Assembly: GCA_015492715.1 (NCBI GenBank)
Contig: WGEO01000145.1
Span: forward strand, 1-41,188
DNA length: 41,188 nt
Direction: 5' to 3'
DNA from: Phycisphaerales bacterium
GTDB taxonomy: Bacteria; Planctomycetota; Phycisphaerae; Phycisphaerales; UBA1924
Every line of letters starts with the position of its first letter. The first letter of the stretch is position 1. The translations under genes and the position numbers were made by a program. Below the pieces are notes generated by a model. The model was not told where the DNA came from, did not search any database, and saw only the letters and a program-made list of their open reading frames with translations. This document shows, piece by piece, positions 2 through 32,465 of this stretch.

Positions 2-289
2 GTGATCGAGGACAGTGAACGACGGGAGATGATCCTGCTGATTCTCCAGAGTGTTCGGCAGGCGTTCGACGATCTCGCGTCGGATATGCGCAGCGGCAAG
101 ATTCGCAATCTCGATCATGCGGCGAACAAACTCGGGGAGTATGCGATGCCGCCCGTGGGTCTGGGGATGATCGCGTTCAGCCGGTACATGGAGATAGCCA
201 GGCAGGGCGAGCGTGAGACGCGTCGCATCGAACGCGAGAAGACGGCGGGAGAGACGACGGGACGGGCTACCGATCCCGCCGGCGGCTGA
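2..289 (+). CDS. hypothetical protein, possibly truncated at the window edge
   Basis: Supplied ORF of 95 aa (MIEDSERREMILLILQSVRQAFDDLASDMRSGKIRNL...). Real start may lie upstream of the window. No family recognised. Confidence 0.45.
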   Translation: MIEDSERREMILLILQSVRQAFDDLASDMRSGKIRNLDHAANKLGEYAMPPVGLGMIAFSRYMEIARQGERETRRIEREKTAGETTGRATDPAGG

Positions 290-320
290 GGCGAGCAGCG
301 GGCATCCCTACCATGTCTTC

Positions 321-1466
321 GTGTCCGGAACGCGTGCCAAGGTGCTCGTGGCGATGTCCGGCGGGGTGGACAGCTCCGTGGCGGCGGCGCTGCTGCTGCG
401 CGAGGGCTACGAGGTGGTCGGGTGTTTCATGCGTCTGGGCTCGCCCGGCGAGGCCGCCGAGGGGCTGCGACCCGACGACGGGGCGTGTAGTCCTGTGCGG
501 ATCGGGCATCGAGGATGCTGCAGCGTGGGAGATGCCGCCGATGCCCGCCTCGTCGCGGCCCAGCTGGATATCCCGTTCTATGTGTGCAACTTCAAGCGGG
601 ACTTCGAGCGGATCATCGACTACTTCGTCGACGAGTACGCGCGCGGTCGCACGCCCAATCCGTGCGTGCGATGCAACGACTGGCTCAAGTTCGGGCGTCT
701 GCACGAGTATGCGCGGGCCATCGGCGCGGACTTCGTGGCCAGCGGGCATTATGCACGGATCGACCGCTCGCGAGGCAGGGCGCGACTGCTCCGTGGCGTC
801 GATGCCCGCAAGGACCAGTCGTATGTGCTGTTCGGGGCGTCGCGCGACCGTCTGGAGGAGATGCTCCTGCCGATCGGGGAACTGGAGAAGCCCCGCGTGC
901 GCGAGATCGCCCGCGAACTGGGCCTGCCGGTCTTCGACAAGCCGGACAGCCAGGAGATCTGTTTCGTGCCCGACGACGACTACGCGGGCCTCGTCGAGCG
1001 ACGACGCCCGCAGGTCGCACGCGCGGGGAAACTGGTGGATCGAGACGGGCGGGTGCTGGGAGAGCACGCCGGGCAGCATCGCTTCACGATCGGACAGCGC
1101 CGGGGCGTGGGCGTCGCGCTGGGCTATCCCGTCTATGTCGTCGACAAGGACCCGGTGACCAACCGCGTGATCGTCGGCAGCGAAGAGGATCTGCTCATCG
1201 AGTCGTGCACTTTCAGCCAGAGCAACTGGATCGAGGACGAGCCGGAATCGTTCTGGCGGCCCTGTGTTGCCAAGTACCGCTATAACACGCCCGGCGTCAT
1301 GGCGCAGGTGCGCCGGATCGACGACGGCTCGGACGGGTTCGAGGTGCGATTCGAGACCCCCCAGCGTGCCGTGGCACCGGGGCAGGCGGTCGTGCTGTAT
1401 GACGCGGACGAGCCGGATGTGGTGATCGGGGGCGGGTGGATCGACGCCGGCATACCCGCCCGTTGA
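321..1466 (+). CDS. mnmA: tRNA-specific 2-thiouridylase MnmA
   Basis: MSGGVDSSVAAALLLREGYEVVGCFMRL PP-loop, RGRTPNPCVRCN, FVASGHYARI, KDQSYVLFG, DSQEICFVPDDDY, FTIGQRRGVGVALGYPVYV. GTG start at 321 preferred over the longer ORF start at 213. Confidence 0.93.
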   Translation: MSGTRAKVLVAMSGGVDSSVAAALLLREGYEVVGCFMRLGSPGEAAEGLRPDDGACSPVRIGHRGCCSVGDAADARLVAAQLDIPFYVCNFKRDFERIIDYFVDEYARGRTPNPCVRCNDWLKFGRLHEYARAIGADFVASGHYARIDRSRGRARLLRGVDARKDQSYVLFGASRDRLEEMLLPIGELEKPRVREIARELGLPVFDKPDSQEICFVPDDDYAGLVERRRPQVARAGKLVDRDGRVLGEHAGQHRFTIGQRRGVGVALGYPVYVVDKDPVTNRVIVGSEEDLLIESCTFSQSNWIEDEPESFWRPCVAKYRYNTPGVMAQVRRIDDGSDGFEVRFETPQRAVAPGQAVVLYDADEPDVVIGGGWIDAGIPAR

Positions 1467-1487
1467 CGCGCGTTCTACACTGGGCGC

Positions 1488-3098
1488 ATGGGGAAGGTGC
1501 TGCTGGGGCTGTGCTTCGTCGTGCTGATCGGCCTGCCCTTTGCGCTCCATCGCGAGCGGGTGCAGGAGGGGCGCCGTCTCGTCGTCATCACGCCGCATGT
1601 TCAGCAGATCCAGGAAGAGTTCGCCCACGCGTTCAGCAGGTGGCACCAGCGCCACTACGGCGAGCCGGTCTTCGTCGACTATCGCCAGCCCGGCGGGACC
1701 AGCGAGATCATTCGCCAGTTGCGTGCCCAGTTTCTGGCGGCTGCGGCACGCGGACGGATCGACCCCGACACGCTCGCAATGGAGCCCGGGACGGTCGGCG
1801 AAGATGTCATGTTCGGCGGGGGTACCTACGACCACGGTCGTCTCAAGGCGGGTATCAGCGCGACCATCGACGGACGCGAGGTGCGCATCCCGATGAGCGT
1901 CCCGCCGGACCCGCTCTTCCCACCCGAGCAACTCCGCGAGTGGTTCGGCGACGAGCCCCATATCGTGGGAAGAACGCCGCTGTACGACCCCGAGCAGTAC
2001 TGGATCGGCACGGCGCTGTCGAGTTTCGGGATCGTCTTCAACCGCCGGCGTCTGGAGGATCTCGGGCTGGATGAGCCGAGGTCCTTCGAGGACCTCACCG
2101 ATCCGAGATACCAGCGGGAGATCGCGCTGGCCGATCCGCGACAGAGCGGCTCGATCACGACGACCTTCGAGTCCATCCTCGACAACTACGGATGGGACCG
2201 GGGCTGGCGGATCCTGCGGGCGATGAGCGCCAATACACGCTACTTCACCAATCGCTCGACCAAGCCGCCGCTGGATGTGGCGATGGGTGAGGCCGCCGCC
2301 GGGCTTGCCATCGACTTCTACGGCAGGAGCCAGTCGCAGGCCGTCATGCGCGAGGGTGAGACGCCTCAGACATCTCGCGTGGGCTATGTCGACCCAGCGG
2401 GGAGTGTCTCCATCGATCCGGACCCGGCGAGCATCATCCGAGGCGGCCCGGACCCGGAGCTGGCGCGCAGATTCCTCGAGTTCCTGCTGACCGAGGAGGC
2501 CCAGGCCCTCTGGCAGTTCCACGCCCGGACGGGTCCGGCAGGGGCGCAGAATCCGGCGGGGGAGTCCGGCGAGCCCATGGGGCCCGAGCGCTACGAGTTG
2601 CGCCGGATGCCGATCCGCAGATCGCTGTACGAACGCTACTTCGACTCTTTCGTGGATCAGGTCCGTCCCTACGAGATCGCCTCCAGCGTGCCCAGCCGGG
2701 GATGGCGATCGAGCATCGGGATCATGATGGGGGCGTTCGGAATCGACTCACACGAGGAACTCCGTCGGGCCTGGAGCGCCTATCAGCGGGCTCGGCAGGA
2801 CGGGGCGAGCGATCGCACACGCGAGATGGAACGCCTGCTGTTCGCGTTTCCGGAAGGAGCGCGGGTCGAGGCGCTCTGGGATGAACTCTTTGGCGACGCG
2901 ATGGCCCGCGACGGCACGCCGCTGCGTGAGAAGGCGGCGCCGGCGTTTCAGGACTTTACGCCCGAGACTTATCGGGCTGTCCGGAGCACATGGCGTGATG
3001 ATCAGGTCGCGAGCCGGCTGGCGATCATCTACGGGCGGATCTTTCGGGAGAACTACGGGCGTGTGGTCGATCTTGCCCGAGCGAGCCCCGTGCCGTAG
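1488..3098 (+). CDS. extracellular solute-binding protein of an ABC transporter (iron/AfuA-FutA-like)
   Basis: N-terminal hydrophobic signal (MGKVLLGLCFVVLIGLPFAL), periplasmic binding protein pattern (VVITPHVQQIQEEFAHAFSRW, ALSSFGIVFNRRRLEDLGLDEPRSFEDLTDPRYQREIALADPRQSGS). Confidence 0.75.
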   Translation: MGKVLLGLCFVVLIGLPFALHRERVQEGRRLVVITPHVQQIQEEFAHAFSRWHQRHYGEPVFVDYRQPGGTSEIIRQLRAQFLAAAARGRIDPDTLAMEPGTVGEDVMFGGGTYDHGRLKAGISATIDGREVRIPMSVPPDPLFPPEQLREWFGDEPHIVGRTPLYDPEQYWIGTALSSFGIVFNRRRLEDLGLDEPRSFEDLTDPRYQREIALADPRQSGSITTTFESILDNYGWDRGWRILRAMSANTRYFTNRSTKPPLDVAMGEAAAGLAIDFYGRSQSQAVMREGETPQTSRVGYVDPAGSVSIDPDPASIIRGGPDPELARRFLEFLLTEEAQALWQFHARTGPAGAQNPAGESGEPMGPERYELRRMPIRRSLYERYFDSFVDQVRPYEIASSVPSRGWRSSIGIMMGAFGIDSHEELRRAWSAYQRARQDGASDRTREMERLLFAFPEGARVEALWDELFGDAMARDGTPLREKAAPAFQDFTPETYRAVRSTWRDDQVASRLAIIYGRIFRENYGRVVDLARASPVP

Positions 3099-3113: not shown

Positions 3114-4676
3114 ATGCCCGAGCGACGCGATCGAGTCATCCCGCCGAGAACCAAGATCGTGGCCACGATCGGTCCGGCCAGCGAGAGCCCGGAGATGGTC
3201 GAGGCCCTGATTCGCGCGGGCGTCAATATCTTCCGGTTCAACTTCTCCCACGGCGCCTTCGAGGAGCACGAGCGGCGTCTGCGGACCGTCCGCGAGTGTG
3301 CGCGCAGGCTCAACCGGGTGATCGGGTGTCTGGGTGATCTGCCGGGCCCCAAGATCCGCATCGGGAAGGTCGAGGGTGCCATCGAGCTGCGACCGGGCGA
3401 GGAGGTCGTATTCGATCCGGACATCGAATTCGCGAGGGTCGAGGCTACACCCGACGGCGAGCGAGCGGTTCTGCCTGTGACCTACGACGGGATCGCCCAT
3501 GATGTGGAGGCAGGCCAGCGGATTCTCCTGGCCGACGGGGCGCTCCGCATGCTCGCGTTGCGTACCGACGGGCGGCGTGTCTATGCGCGGGTGACGGTGG
3601 GGGGGACGCTGACCAGCGGCAAGGGGATCAATCTGCCCGAGAGCGAGGTCAGTGCCCCGGCGATCACGGACCGCGACTGGGCCTGCGTCGAGTGGGCCGT
3701 GGCCCACGGGCTGGACTTCCTGGCCCTCTCGTTCGTGCGCACGCCGCGCGAGGTCCGCGAACTCAAGGATCGCCTCTGGTCGATGTGCAGCGTCAATCGC
3801 GACGAGTCCGACGGGGGGGGCGGCTCGATGATCCAGGTGATCGCGAAGATCGAGAAGCCGCAGGCCGTGGCGCGGATCGACGCGATCGTGGAGGCCGCCG
3901 ATGGGATCATGGTCGCCCGGGGCGATCTGGGTGTGGAGATGGAGATCGCGGGCGTTCCGGTTGCTCAGAAGCGGATCATCGCATCGTGCCGGGCGCAGGG
4001 CAAGCCGGTGATCGTCGCGACGCAGATGCTCGAGACGATGATCGAGAACCCCACGCCCACGCGGGCCGAGGCGAGCGATGTCGCCAACGCGATCTACGAC
4101 GGGGCCAGTTGCGTGATGCTCAGTGGAGAGACGGCGGTCGGGAGGCACCCGGATCTCGTCGTCGAGACGATGGTGCGCATCATCGAGGCGACGGAGGATC
4201 GCCTGCGCGAGATCGGTCCGCAATACGCCGGCCCGACGCAGATCCTCGAGAAGCACACCATGACCGCGGCCCTGACGACCGGGGCGTGGTACGCCGGCGA
4301 GCGTCTCGACGCGCGCGCGATCGCCTGCTGGAGCGAGAACGGCGGGACGGCCCGCTATCTGAGCCAGATGGGGTTCCTGATCCCCATCCTCGCCTGCTCG
4401 ACGCGCGAGCGCGCGACGCGCCGGATGACCATTCTGCCCGGGATCACGCCCATGGTCACGGAGCCGCCGGCTTCGGGGAGCGTCAGCGAGTGGAACGCCT
4501 GGGCCGTCGAGGAACTCCGCGAGCGCGGGTGGGCCGAGGAGGGCCAGTGGGTCGTGCTCTTGGCGGGCCGTCCGCTGGGGCAGCCGAGACGGACGAACTC
4601 CATGACGCTCCATCGCGTTGGCGACGACGCGGATCCGGCGCGCGCCGGAGCACGATCCGGGACTCCCTCGCCGTAG
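3114..4676 (+). CDS. pyk: pyruvate kinase
   Basis: RTKIVATIGPASESPEMVEALIRAGVNIFRFNFSHG, GDLPGPKIRIG, IEKPQAVARIDAIVEAADGIMVARGDLGVEM, KPVIVATQMLETMIENPTPTRAEASDVANAIYDGASCVMLSGETAVG. Confidence 0.96.
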   Translation: MPERRDRVIPPRTKIVATIGPASESPEMVEALIRAGVNIFRFNFSHGAFEEHERRLRTVRECARRLNRVIGCLGDLPGPKIRIGKVEGAIELRPGEEVVFDPDIEFARVEATPDGERAVLPVTYDGIAHDVEAGQRILLADGALRMLALRTDGRRVYARVTVGGTLTSGKGINLPESEVSAPAITDRDWACVEWAVAHGLDFLALSFVRTPREVRELKDRLWSMCSVNRDESDGGGGSMIQVIAKIEKPQAVARIDAIVEAADGIMVARGDLGVEMEIAGVPVAQKRIIASCRAQGKPVIVATQMLETMIENPTPTRAEASDVANAIYDGASCVMLSGETAVGRHPDLVVETMVRIIEATEDRLREIGPQYAGPTQILEKHTMTAALTTGAWYAGERLDARAIACWSENGGTARYLSQMGFLIPILACSTRERATRRMTILPGITPMVTEPPASGSVSEWNAWAVEELRERGWAEEGQWVVLLAGRPLGQPRRTNSMTLHRVGDDADPARAGARSGTPSP

Positions 4677-4686
4677 GATCCGGGCG

Positions 4687-6132
4687 ATGAGCATGGCCCA
4701 GATCCAGCGGGCGCAAGCCCTTGCGCGCAGCGGGCGCACGGAGGAGGCGATGCACCTTCTCCAGCAGGTGGTAAAGCGCCAGCGGTCTTCGCTCCAGGCC
4801 CACGCGCTGCTCGCGGACCTGTGCCTCGCAAGTGGGCGACTGGAACGCGCACTGGAGGGATATCGGACCTGCGCTCGACTTCGCCCGCGCGATCCGGAGT
4901 TTCCCTTTCGCTGCGCCCTGGCGCTGATCCGCATGTCGCGTCCGGACGAGGCACTGGCCCGCCTCGATCAGGCGCTGGCGATCCAGCCGGCGCATCGCGC
5001 GAGCGTCGCGTGGAAGGCCTCGCTCCTGGAGGTCGCCGGGCGGTATGACGAGGCCGAGGCGGTGCTGGACGGATTCGCCGACGAGCCGGACGCGGAGATG
5101 GACCGCGTGCGTGCGCGCCTTGCGCTGGTCCGGCAGGACGCGCCCGGATGCATTGCGATCTGTGAGCGGCGTCTGGCATCGGCGGGGCTGGATGATCGTC
5201 TGCGGGCGCAGTTCGGGTTTCTGCTGGGGCAGGCCCTGGATCGGATGGGATGCTGCGACGAGGCGTTCGACGCGTTCGTGCGTGCCAACGAGGTCGGTGC
5301 GACGGGATTCGACACGGACGCGTTCGAGCGCTGGGTTCGTCGGGTCGCGGAGGTCACGCGGGCGTTGCCGGAGCTGGAGGCAGGAGATCTGGGCGAGGGG
5401 ATCGTGCTCATCTGTGCCCTGCCGCGAGGGGGCACGACGCTGGTGGAGTCGATCATCGACGCCCATCCGGAGGGCGCGGGGATCGGCGAGAGCGACGAGC
5501 TCGACAGCGCGAGCCTGCTGTGTGCGGGACCGAAGGGATATCCCGAGGGGCTTGTCGAGCCTGACGGGCGGCGATGCGGGAGGGTTGCGCGGGAACTGGA
5601 TCGGCGCATGCGCGTCCGTGCGCGCACGGCACGCGTCATCGCGAACAAGAACCTTCGCAACTGGGTCCATGTGGGGCTGGCCCGCCGTCTGCTGCCGAAG
5701 GCTCGCTTCCTCTGGGTGCGGCGCGAGGCCCGCGATCACTGCGTCGGGATGTTCACGCAGGATCTGGGGGGGGCGGACATGGGCTTTACGCGCGATCTGG
5801 TCAGTGCTGCGAGGGTCTGGAAACTGCACGAGCAGGTCATGCGTGCGTGGCGCAGCGAACTGGGCGAGCGGATGCTCGAGGTTCACTATGAGGAACTGGT
5901 CCGGGAGCCCGAGCGACTTGCGCGCGAGATCATCGGATTCTGCGGGCTTGCCTGGGACGAGGGGTGTCTTCGCTTCCATGAATCGAAGCGGGCGGTGCTG
6001 ACGCACAGCGCCCAGCAGGTGCGTGAGGGGATTCACAGCAGGCGGATCGGGCGCTGGCGCCGGTTCGAGAGGCATCTGGGGGCGATGCTCGAGGAACTGG
6101 GGATCGCAGACGGTGGGGAGGATCCATGCTGA
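4687..6132 (+). CDS. TPR-repeat sulfotransferase family protein (copy 1)
   Basis: N-terminal TPR repeats (MAQIQRAQALARSGRTEEAMHLLQQVV...), then PAPS-binding-like ICALPRGGTTLVESIIDAHPEGAGIGES and a C-terminal sulfotransferase tail (LEVHYEELVREPERLAREIIGFCGLAWDEGCLRFHESKRAVLTHS). ATG at 4687 chosen inside the longer ORF. Confidence 0.85.
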   Translation: MSMAQIQRAQALARSGRTEEAMHLLQQVVKRQRSSLQAHALLADLCLASGRLERALEGYRTCARLRPRDPEFPFRCALALIRMSRPDEALARLDQALAIQPAHRASVAWKASLLEVAGRYDEAEAVLDGFADEPDAEMDRVRARLALVRQDAPGCIAICERRLASAGLDDRLRAQFGFLLGQALDRMGCCDEAFDAFVRANEVGATGFDTDAFERWVRRVAEVTRALPELEAGDLGEGIVLICALPRGGTTLVESIIDAHPEGAGIGESDELDSASLLCAGPKGYPEGLVEPDGRRCGRVARELDRRMRVRARTARVIANKNLRNWVHVGLARRLLPKARFLWVRREARDHCVGMFTQDLGGADMGFTRDLVSAARVWKLHEQVMRAWRSELGERMLEVHYEELVREPERLAREIIGFCGLAWDEGCLRFHESKRAVLTHSAQQVREGIHSRRIGRWRRFERHLGAMLEELGIADGGEDPC

Positions 6133-7622
6133 AGCCTCGCGAGCGAGCCATCATCCATCAGGCGAACCAGCACTACGAGGCGGGGCGCCTGCAGCTTGCG
6201 CAGGAGTTGTGCGAGAGCCTCATCCGCGGGAAGAAGGGACCGCTCGAGGCATTCCACCTGCTGGGGCTGGTGCTGATGCGTCGCGAGCAGACGGAGCGGG
6301 CGCTGGACTGTTTCCAGCAGTGCGCCCGCATGCGTCCGAACGATCCGCAGTTTCACTATCTGATGGGCAAGATGCTGGCAATGAGTGCGCGCAGCGAGGA
6401 GGCTCTGGCGCGGTATGACTGGGCGCTGACGCTCGACCCCGAGTATGTGCCGGCGATCACCTGGAAGGCGGCGCTGCTGGAGCGAGCCGGGCGCAACGAC
6501 GAGGCCCGGGCGCTGCTCGAGCCGCTGCTGGGGACGGATCGGGAAGATCCGGAGATGCAGCACATCATGGCCCGGATCGAGCACGGCGACAAGCGCTACG
6601 AGCGATGCGTGGAGATCTGCCGGCGCGAGGTCGACCGTCCGGGGCAGACGCTGCGCCTCCGCCAGTTGCTGGGGTTCCTGCTGGGCAGGACCTATCACCG
6701 GATGGGGGAGTATGACAAGGCGTTCGAGGCGTTCCGCGAGGCCAACGCGCTGCAGCAGGAGACCTTCGATCTGGAGGGCTACACGAGGGCCATCGAGCGC
6801 TGCGTGGAGGTGTTCTGCGGCCCCGATCGCGAGCGGATTCCCGTGGCCCGGAGCGGCGGCGAGGGCATGGTCATGATCTGTGCCATGCCCCGATCGGGCA
6901 CGACGCTCGTCGAGACGATCATCGATGCGCACCCGGACGCGGTGGGCATCGGCGAGACGGCGGACCTCGATCGCGTGATCGTGCGTCTGCCGCTGACGCT
7001 CCAGACCCAGACACCATATCCGGACGCGGCGATCGGGATGGATCAGCAGACGATGGACCGTCTGGCTCGCGATCTGCAGAAGGTCTTTCGCGGGCGGGCG
7101 GGCTCGTCGGCGAGCGTGATCGTGAACAAGCACCTGCAGAACTGGCTGCATGTCGGGTTCATGCGTCACATCATGCCGAACGGTCGGGCGATCTGGGTGC
7201 ATCGGGACCCGCGCGACAACTGCCTTGGCATCTACATGCAGCACTTCAATCCCAGGACCCTGGGGTATGCGGTGGATCTGCGGATGCTGGCGCGCGTGCA
7301 CACGCTGCACATGCGGATCATGCGTCAGTGGATGGAGCGACTGGACTACCCGATCCTCGAGGTTCCGTACGAGGCGCTGGTCGAGGACCCCGAGCCGTGG
7401 ACACGCCGGATCATCGAGTTCTGCGGGCTGGAATGGGACGACGCGTGCCTGCGGTTCTATGAGCGGGGGCGGGTCGCCCTGACGCACAGTTACGAGCAGG
7501 TCCGCCGGCCCATCTACAAGGAGGCGATCGGCAGATGGCGCCTCTACGAGAAGCACCTGGGGCCGTTGCTGGAGGAGCTGGAAAAGGCGGGCGCCGAGTT
7601 CAGCGACCCGCCAGGGCCATGA
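6126..7622 (+). CDS. TPR-repeat sulfotransferase family protein (copy 2)
   Basis: Same architecture as the preceding ORF: TPRs, ICAMPRSGTTLVETIIDAHPDAVGIGET, VPYEALVEDPEPWTRRIIEFCGLEWDDACLRFYERGRVALTHS. Overlaps copy 1 by 7 bp. Confidence 0.87.
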   Translation: MLKPRERAIIHQANQHYEAGRLQLAQELCESLIRGKKGPLEAFHLLGLVLMRREQTERALDCFQQCARMRPNDPQFHYLMGKMLAMSARSEEALARYDWALTLDPEYVPAITWKAALLERAGRNDEARALLEPLLGTDREDPEMQHIMARIEHGDKRYERCVEICRREVDRPGQTLRLRQLLGFLLGRTYHRMGEYDKAFEAFREANALQQETFDLEGYTRAIERCVEVFCGPDRERIPVARSGGEGMVMICAMPRSGTTLVETIIDAHPDAVGIGETADLDRVIVRLPLTLQTQTPYPDAAIGMDQQTMDRLARDLQKVFRGRAGSSASVIVNKHLQNWLHVGFMRHIMPNGRAIWVHRDPRDNCLGIYMQHFNPRTLGYAVDLRMLARVHTLHMRIMRQWMERLDYPILEVPYEALVEDPEPWTRRIIEFCGLEWDDACLRFYERGRVALTHSYEQVRRPIYKEAIGRWRLYEKHLGPLLEELEKAGAEFSDPPGP

Positions 7623-10418: not shown

Positions 10419-10489
10419 GGCGGCAATGATATTCTGGTGCGGGCAGGCGGCCGCCCAGGCCGGCAGAGATTCGTGCGAGGGAGCGGGCG

Positions 10490-29747: not shown

Positions 29748-29800
29748 GGGCGAGGGTAGGACGCGGCATGGGGGAGGGCGAGGACCCATCAGATGCCAAG

Positions 29801-29809
29801 TTATCCACA
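29801..29809 (+). promoter_or_regulatory. consensus-type DnaA box TTATCCACA upstream of recA
   Basis: Exact match to the classical 9-mer DnaA box. Confidence 0.6.
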
Positions 29810-29815
29810 AACGAT

Positions 29816-29843
29816 ACCCGAACATTGACACATCCGTTCGGGT
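29816..29843. promoter_or_regulatory. inverted repeat ACCCGAAC-N12-GTTCGGGT over the recA -35 element
   Basis: 8-bp perfect inverted arms flanking and covering TTGACA. Candidate SOS/LexA-like operator. Confidence 0.6.
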
Positions 29844-29854
29844 TCTGGTATACT
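29825..29854 (+). promoter_or_regulatory. sigma70-type promoter for recA
   Basis: TTGACA (29825-29830) - 18 bp - TATACT (29849-29854) with extended -10 TG (TGGTATACT). Confidence 0.82.
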
Positions 29855-30001
29855 CCGCCCGCCGGGCACGCGACCAGCGCCGCCCCCGGCCTCGGCCACG
29901 GGTCGCGTTGGCCCGTGCGAGTTCCGCGCTGGTTTCGTCCGCGTCACCTGCCCCGCGTGCGGGCCAGCCGGCGGGGGCGAGCAGAAGCAGGGGAGGGCAT
30001 T

Positions 30002-31153
30002 ATGCCCGCAAAGACGACATCGTCCGAGAAGTCCGCCGGCACGACCAGCAACGCCAGAGGCTCCGCCAAGGCGCCGAAGGGGACCGGTGCAGCCCAGATC
30101 ATCGAGCCCAAGCCCGCCGGGGCGAACGGTGCGGCAGGCGTGGACCCGCAGAAGAAGCAGGCACTGGATCGGGCCCTCTCCCAGATCGACAAGGTCTTCG
30201 GCAAGGGCTCGATCATGCGTCTGGACGAAGATGCCTACCTCGCGGTGCAGGGCATCAGCACCGGAGCCCTGAGCCTCGACCTGGCTCTGGGCGGGCGTGG
30301 CATTCCACGGGGACGCATCGTGGAGGTCTTCGGGCCGGAATCCAGCGGAAAGACGACACTGGCTCTGACGGTTGCTGCCAATGCGCAGAAGGGTGGGGGC
30401 GTCGCCGCGTTCATCGACGCCGAGCACGCGCTGGATCCCACATGGGCGAAGAAGATCGGCGTCAACATCGACGAGTTGCTCGTCTCTCAGCCGGATACGG
30501 GCGAGCAGGCGCTGGAGATCTGCGAGCTGCTGGTGCGATCCAACGCGGTGGATGTGATCGTCGTCGATTCCGTCGCCGCGCTCATTCCCAAGGCCGAGAT
30601 CGAGGGCGAGATGGGCGACAGCCATGTCGGGCTGCAGGCTCGCCTCATGAGCCAGGCCATGCGCAAGCTCACGGGCGTGATCGCTCGCTCCAACTGTACC
30701 GTCATCTTCATCAACCAGATCCGCGAGAAGATCGGCGTGATGTTCGGCAGCCCGGAGACAACGCCCGGCGGGCGGGCACTCAAGTTCTACTCCTCCGTCC
30801 GCATCGACATCCGGCGCACCGGCGCGATCAAGGACGGCGACCAGAATGTGGGCAACCGCGTGCGTGCCCGCGTCGTCAAGAACAAGGTCGCCCCGCCCTT
30901 CCGCCAGGCCGAGTTCGACATCATGTTCGATGAAGGGATCAGCGCCAGCGGCGACCTGCTCGATCTGGCGATCGACGCGGGCGTGTGCCAGAAGTCCGGC
31001 TCCTGGTTTAGTTATGGCGAGATGCGTCTGGGCCAGGGGCGCGAGAACGCCAAGGCGTTCCTGCGCGAGAATCCGGACCTGTTCGAGGAGATCCGACAGG
31101 GCGTGCTCAGGGTCAAAGCACCACAGCCGCCAGCAAAGATCGAAGAGGCCTGA
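30002..31153 (+). CDS. recA: recombinase RecA with N-terminal low-complexity extension
   Basis: [122 protein letters not shown] before ATG 30002. Confidence 0.97.
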
Positions 31154-31231
31154 GACGGGGGCGAGGCATCGATCCATTCCATCGTCGTGAGGCGAGGATC
31201 GTTCGGTGTGCGCGCCATCTACGCTTGGGGC

Positions 31232-32422
31232 ATGCATGACCCCCGTCGAGCCGTTGCCGAACGCTTCCGACCCTTCGGCACCACGATCTTCGCCGAGATG
31301 ACGCGCCTGGCCAACGAGGCCGGCGCGATCAATCTCTCGCAGGGATTCCCGGACTTCGACGGCCCGCAGTTCGTGCGAGAAGAAGCCAAACGAGCGATCG
31401 ACGAGGGGCACAATCAGTACGCCCCGATGATCGGCGTGCCTCAGTTGACGCGAGCGTTGGCGGATTCCTGGCGCGAGCTGACGGGCATCGAGATCGAGCC
31501 GGCGGTTCATGTCACGGTCACCAGTGGGTGCACGGAGGCCCTTGCGGCGGCATTTCTCGGCTTGTGCAATCCCGGCGAGGAGGTCATTCTCTTCGAGCCG
31601 TACTACGACAGTTATCGCGCGTGCTGCGCCATGGCCGGCGCCATACCGAGATTCGTGGCGCTGCGCCCGCCCCCGCCAGGGGCGCCGGATGATGCCCCGT
31701 TTGTGTTCGATGAAGATGAACTTCGCGCGGCGTTCAGCGATCGCACACGGGCAATCCTCATCAACACGCCGCACAACCCCACGGGCAAGGTCTTCACGCA
31801 GGCTGAACTGGCATGTATCGCGGATCTCTGCCGCAAGTTCGATGTCATCGCGATCTGCGACGAGGTCTACGAGCACCTGACCTACGGAGCCAAGCACATC
31901 CGCATGGCGACGCTGGAGGGGATGTTCGAGCGGACGCTGACGCTCTCGAGCCTCGGCAAGACCCACAGCCTGACGGGTTGGAAGATCGGCTGGGCCATCG
32001 GCCCGGCGCATCTGAGTGCCGCAGTCCGCAGTGCGCACCAGTTCCTGACCTACGCCGTCGCAACGCCCCTGCAGCACGCCGCCGCACGGGCCATCCGGGA
32101 TGGGGGCGATGCCGTGGCCGATCTGCGCAGCCACTACGAACGGGCCCGCGACTTTCTCTGTGGCGTGCTGCGCGACCTGGGCCTTCGCGTCTTCACACCC
32201 GCCGGGACCTATTTCCTGCTGGCCGACCACACGCCGCTGGGTCTCGGCGATGATGTCGAGTTCTGTCGATACCTGACGACGCAGGTGAAGGTGGCGGCAA
32301 TCCCCCCCTCGGCGTTCTACGAGCACAAGGAACTGGGCCGTCCGCTCGTCCGGTTCGCGTTCTGCAAGAAGATGGAGACACTGGAGCGGGCTGCCGATCG
32401 TCTCCGAACGCTCGCGAAGTGA
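31232..32422 (+). CDS. class I/II pyridoxal phosphate aminotransferase (methionine/kynurenine aminotransferase-like)
   Basis: INLSQGFPDFDGPQFVREEAKRAIDEGHNQYAPMIGVPQLTRALA, INTPHNPTGKVFTQAEL, AICDEVYEHLTYGAKH, SLGKTHSLTGWKIGWAIGP. Confidence 0.92.
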   Translation: MHDPRRAVAERFRPFGTTIFAEMTRLANEAGAINLSQGFPDFDGPQFVREEAKRAIDEGHNQYAPMIGVPQLTRALADSWRELTGIEIEPAVHVTVTSGCTEALAAAFLGLCNPGEEVILFEPYYDSYRACCAMAGAIPRFVALRPPPPGAPDDAPFVFDEDELRAAFSDRTRAILINTPHNPTGKVFTQAELACIADLCRKFDVIAICDEVYEHLTYGAKHIRMATLEGMFERTLTLSSLGKTHSLTGWKIGWAIGPAHLSAAVRSAHQFLTYAVATPLQHAAARAIRDGGDAVADLRSHYERARDFLCGVLRDLGLRVFTPAGTYFLLADHTPLGLGDDVEFCRYLTTQVKVAAIPPSAFYEHKELGRPLVRFAFCKKMETLERAADRLRTLAK

Positions 32423-32465
32423 CATCCGCGGCCATGGCAGGATTCCAGCACGCTACATTGTGGCC

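Follow-up and report, generated by a model that had tools for sequence, protein, structure and literature searches.

The window examined in this study, a stretch of 41,188 nucleotides from a planctomycete genome, contains a gene for a solute-binding protein that begins shortly downstream of mnmA (Table 1). The mnmA stop codon occupies positions 1464-1466, and the heptamer CTACACT lies just beyond it at 1475-1481, exactly six bases ahead of ATG 1488. By direct reading, no SD-like (Shine-Dalgarno) word (GGAG, GAGG or AGGA) stands ahead of this ATG, in agreement with the initial annotation of the site. That annotation had also described the same layout at mnmA, at a class I/II aminotransferase gene and at an atoE-like gene, with near versions on the minus strand at an SDR gene (five-base spacer) and at speA (seven-base spacer); all of these layouts read as claimed, and gene identities in the window were checked by Pfam. 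A search of the window for CTACNNT-N6-RTG returned four matches, all four of them at gene starts (mnmA, solute-binding protein, aminotransferase, and atoE-like), compared to a mean of 0.44 matches in the shuffled window, where four were reached in 1 of 100 shuffles. One further word, a TAGGAT upstream of a TPR-sulfotransferase gene, is ambiguous because its AGGA also scores as an SD. Two TPR-sulfotransferase genes overlap in tandem here (4687-6132 and 6126-7622), with the domains identified by Pfam in the first and judged by sequence likeness to the first in the second. Spurious antisense open reading frames (ORFs) lie opposite real genes at 267-2522 (minus strand, 751 aa) and 29801-32425 (minus strand, 874 aa).

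Table 1. Proposed -10 boxes and associated features in the window.
Feature	Positions	Strand	Basis
mnmA proposed -10 box CTACCAT, N6, GTG 321	308..314	+	motif scan; PF03054
Solute-binding protein gene, proposed -10 box CTACACT (TACACT 1476-1481)	1475..1481	+	direct read and orthologues
Six-base spacer gggcgc	1482..1487	+	direct read; genome-wide peak at spacing 6
Solute-binding protein gene, PF13343 SBP_bac_6, proposed leaderless	1488..3098	+	Pfam
TAGGAT, 7 nt ahead of ATG 4687 (TPR-sulfotransferase); ambiguous	4674..4679	+	
speA (arginine decarboxylase) proposed -10 box TATCAT, N7, ATG 10418	10426..10431	-	Pfam
SDR gene proposed -10 box CTACCCT, N5, ATG 29747	29753..29759	-	Pfam
recA, SD-led contrast gene (SD gggGAGGgcattATG), without TAnnnT box at start	30002..31153	+	
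Class I/II aminotransferase gene, proposed -10 box CTACGCT, N6, ATG 31232	31219..31225	+	motif scan; orthologues
atoE-like short-chain fatty acid transporter (PF02667), proposed -10 box CTACATT, N6, ATG 32466	32453..32459	+	motif scan; Pfam

The window was combined with 650 kb more from the same genome, giving 692 kb (26% of the genome) and 523 genes. Genes were called with a home-made codon model trained on the window genes, in which starts were chosen blind to the upstream sequence and some starts are wrong; length-based training had been misled by long antisense ORFs in this GC-rich genome. TAnnnT stood exactly 6 nt ahead of the start codon in 32 of the 523 genes, with counts of 1, 0, 11, 32, 14, 11, 6, 2, and 2 at gaps of 3 to 11 nt, respectively. 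Dinucleotide shuffles gave means of 1.1-1.4 per gap and a maximum of 7 in 200 shuffles (mean ~1.2 and maximum 6 at the 6-nt gap), so that the genome-wide scan proposed in the initial annotation yields a clear peak, with TANNNT at a fixed distance of ~12 bp from its first T to the start codon. The longer form CTACnnT was found at 6 nt in 14 genes, against a per-position background of 0.20. The same peak at 6 nt was present in a positive control of six named Actinobacteria loci (12 versus a background of 0.37) and absent from a negative control of ten Bacillaceae loci. Based on the excess over background, and allowing for uncertain starts, 11-13% of genes are estimated to carry the motif. A family-wide share of 21% obtained from orthologue loci was set aside as biased because those loci had been picked around motif genes.

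Genes with the box differ from the remainder in how they appear to begin translation. Only 12 of 74 motif genes (16%) have an SD, compared to 228 of 449 others (51%; p=1.3e-8), and fewer of them have a close co-directional neighbor (23% of motif genes and 33% of others), a weak difference in the direction that depletion inside operons would give. The signature of initiation mode is also conserved between orthologues: TAnnnT occurs at exactly 6 nt in 16/29 orthologues of the solute-binding protein (19/29 at 5-8 nt) and in 14/29 aminotransferase loci including the window's own (18/29 at 5-8 nt), but in 0/29 recA loci, again including the window's own (3/29 at 5-8 nt). Of the 29 recA loci, 23 have an SD at one of their candidate starts; in the window, recA is SD-led and has no box at its start. 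In other genera, the start codon of orthologues moves relative to the protein alignment and the box keeps its 6-nt distance, with the third base of the box varying among C, G, and T. In some solute-binding protein and aminotransferase orthologues (e.g., L156, L236, and L248), an SD-like word replaces the box, and single genes therefore seem to switch initiation mode between genera.

The consensus of the aligned sites is TA(C>G=T)N(A/C)T; the six bases between the box and the start codon are GC-rich and frequently end in CC before the ATG. Base 3 of the box is C in 51% of sites, G in 22%, and T in 22%. CTAC is the commonest form, but it accounts for just 23 of 68 sites (34%), and orthologues exchange TACACT, TAGACT, and TATACT; the proposal of a fixed CTAC prefix therefore did not hold. 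The impression that T never precedes TA was likewise rejected as a feature of the motif, since T precedes TA in 4 of 110 TAnnnT words elsewhere and its rarity is genome background. Matches of at least four of six bases to TTGACA at a spacer of 15-20 occurred at 12% of sites versus 3-15% of control windows, and at 15% of sites in a second data set of family loci versus 6-19% of controls. These matches fall within the control range, no hidden -35 was found, and the earlier observation that the sites lack a convincing -35 is upheld in both data sets. The aligned sites show no clear preference for an extended -10 (TGn), the third and second bases ahead of the box being T in 24% and G in 37% of cases, respectively. 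Because neither a -35 nor an extended -10 is detectable, promoter function would rest on one short element.

CarD assists weak promoters in mycobacteria. Nearly all genomes of the planctomycete phylum have a single match to the CarD domain (PF02559); the hits listed lie mostly in frames of Mfd size (~1100 aa), and the match in the genome studied here falls within a frame of 1111 aa. A stand-alone CarD thus seems not to be encoded in the phylum, judging from these matches, and CarD was rejected as a helper of the -35-less promoters since the PF02559 matches listed are mostly Mfd-like. Two divergent gene pairs carry TAnnnT at both starts (L018:2932-2971 and L022:13674-13722), with start codons only 38 and 47 bp apart, distances at which the -35 region of each promoter would overlap the region of the other.

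Six bases between box and ATG is the ordinary distance from a -10 element to +1. With the spacer gggcgc, the A of ATG 1488 is the expected +1 of the solute-binding protein gene. The peak at 6 nt, the depletion of SDs, the absence of a -35, a spacing that fits the start codon as +1, and the movement of the box together with the start codon among orthologues all support the reading of TAnnnT as a leaderless -10 that the initial annotation had put forward. From these sequence patterns, CTACACT very probably serves as the -10 element (TANNNT) in a sigma-70-type housekeeping promoter that drives a leaderless mRNA, and the same layout would serve roughly 11-13% of the genes in this genome. RNA polymerase would recognize the box through RpoD and begin transcription at, or a few bases from, the start codon, and the ribosome would then bind the 5'-terminal AUG or GUG without a Shine-Dalgarno sequence. 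Because the TAnnnT box sits six bases before the start codon, transcription of about one in eight genes seems to begin exactly there.

There are several other potential explanations for the fixed layout. It is possible, although unlikely, that the box is a true -10 but that transcription starts 1-8 nt from the start codon, producing very short leaders or truncated starts. The enrichment at spacings of 5, 7, 8, and 9 nt (11, 14, 11, and 6 genes) would fit such offsets; however, the mode is exactly 6, the enrichment is over by 10 nt, and orthologues keep 6 nt although the start codon moves. Considerably less probable is a signal acting in translation or at the RNA level, such as a ribosomal protein S1 site, in an mRNA with an ordinary leader. 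An AT-rich bias at -20 to -10 has been described in low-SD phyla, including one planctomycete, for which either S1 binding or leaderless promoters were considered possible (PMC5397173). The signal observed here, however, is a defined TAnnnT at one spacing rather than a U-rich stretch, and well upstream of SD genes this word shows a strand bias of 18 forward to 4 reverse, which is what a general -10 should give.

The least probable alternative is that the box is an operator, or the -10 of one regulon read by an ECF sigma or another dedicated factor. The prevalence of C at the third base and the over-representation of the CTAC form could suggest such specialization, but the window genes that carry the box are unrelated in function (tRNA thiolation, solute binding, aminotransferase, fatty-acid transport, SDR, and arginine decarboxylase), alignment of the sites reveals no conspicuous second box, and the consensus matches sigma-70 -10 boxes. 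Compared to the sigma-70 -10 (Pribnow box, TATAAT), the planctomycete element keeps T1, A2, and T6, has A or C at position 5, and lies at the normal distance to the proposed +1; it differs in that C predominates at position 3, with G or T next, and in having no detectable -35 or TGn.

The leaderless -10 reading places the planctomycete sites beside a well-described group of promoters. TANNNT ~12 bp before the start codon is a sign of bacterial leaderless genes (Zheng et al. 2011, PMC3160421) that was reported in 207 of 953 bacterial genomes, and planctomycetes are not named among the groups in that survey. The leaderless promoters of Actinobacteria and Deinococcus-Thermus (PMC3160421; M. tuberculosis start-site maps, PMC3898074) resemble the present ones in this distance, in high GC content, in carrying little information in the middle three bases, in SD loss, and, for the Actinobacteria control, in the same 6-nt peak. 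They differ in phylum, in that CarD seems to be missing from the planctomycete phylum, and in that the share of 11-13% is lower than the averages of 19-39% tabulated in PMC3160421. The mixture of SD-led and leaderless starts in one genome is also a property of the leaderless-transcription genome group of GeneMarkS-2, as cited in PMC9581028, where the citing text does not name planctomycetes. A literature search for planctomycete start-site maps or leaderless genes found nothing direct. The signal is therefore of a known kind, in a lineage for which no report was found.

Across the phylum, the distribution of the signal is patchy. In 297 genomes, occurrences of VTAYVMT-N6-ATG were set against those of the same words at N15, and the families represented by several genomes were tabulated; the excess was 2.7- to 15-fold in the genome's own family and three other sampled families of its order. 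A 2.4- to 5.8-fold excess was found in f13, f19, f24, f25, f28, f34, f37, f43, f48, f63, f69, and f73. The N6/N15 ratio was ~1 or below in families of other orders of the same class (f5-f7) and in f30, f31, f33, f39, f50, and f76; the families without excess include several large ones with near-complete genomes. Motif-blind profiling of six relatives identified the signal in 19 of 159 genes (~2.5 expected) of G315, a genome of another family of the order with 67% GC, and a weak excess only (7/139 versus 2.5) in G350, which belongs to the same family and has 63% GC. No clear excess was detected by this approach in the four relatives of 45-54% GC, in a sample where GC and lineage vary together. 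A tentative extension of these findings, possible but doubtful at present, is that a substantial set of -10-only promoters (without a -35, extended -10, or CarD) is fused to start codons in the high-GC planctomycetes of the order, that leaderless initiation was gained or lost several times in the phylum, and that compact divergent promoters have less than 50 bp between their two start codons.

Surveys of leaderless genes have so far centered on Actinobacteria, Deinococcus-Thermus, and archaea. In the present data, one planctomycete order and about a dozen further families show a strong signature and sister orders show none, a pattern of presence and absence that allows gains and losses of leaderless initiation to be tested inside one phylum. 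Annotation tools that expect an SD may misplace start codons in such genomes. The sites also pose the mechanistic question of how GC-rich -10-only promoters are opened without a -35 or CarD.

Three additional observations concern RecA. The named loci with the nearest RecA include MAGs of Planctomycetota, Phycisphaerae, and Phycisphaerales, which makes Phycisphaerales the probable order of the genome. The N-terminal extension of RecA is variable in the family (window 30002-30150; L262-L290), and its start differs by tens of codons among orthologues. In addition, a contig labeled Limnohabitans sp. MAG13 (L061) encodes a RecA that is 78% identical to the planctomycete RecA of the window and, among the matches listed, closer to it than that of any planctomycete-labeled locus; this contig is probably mis-binned.
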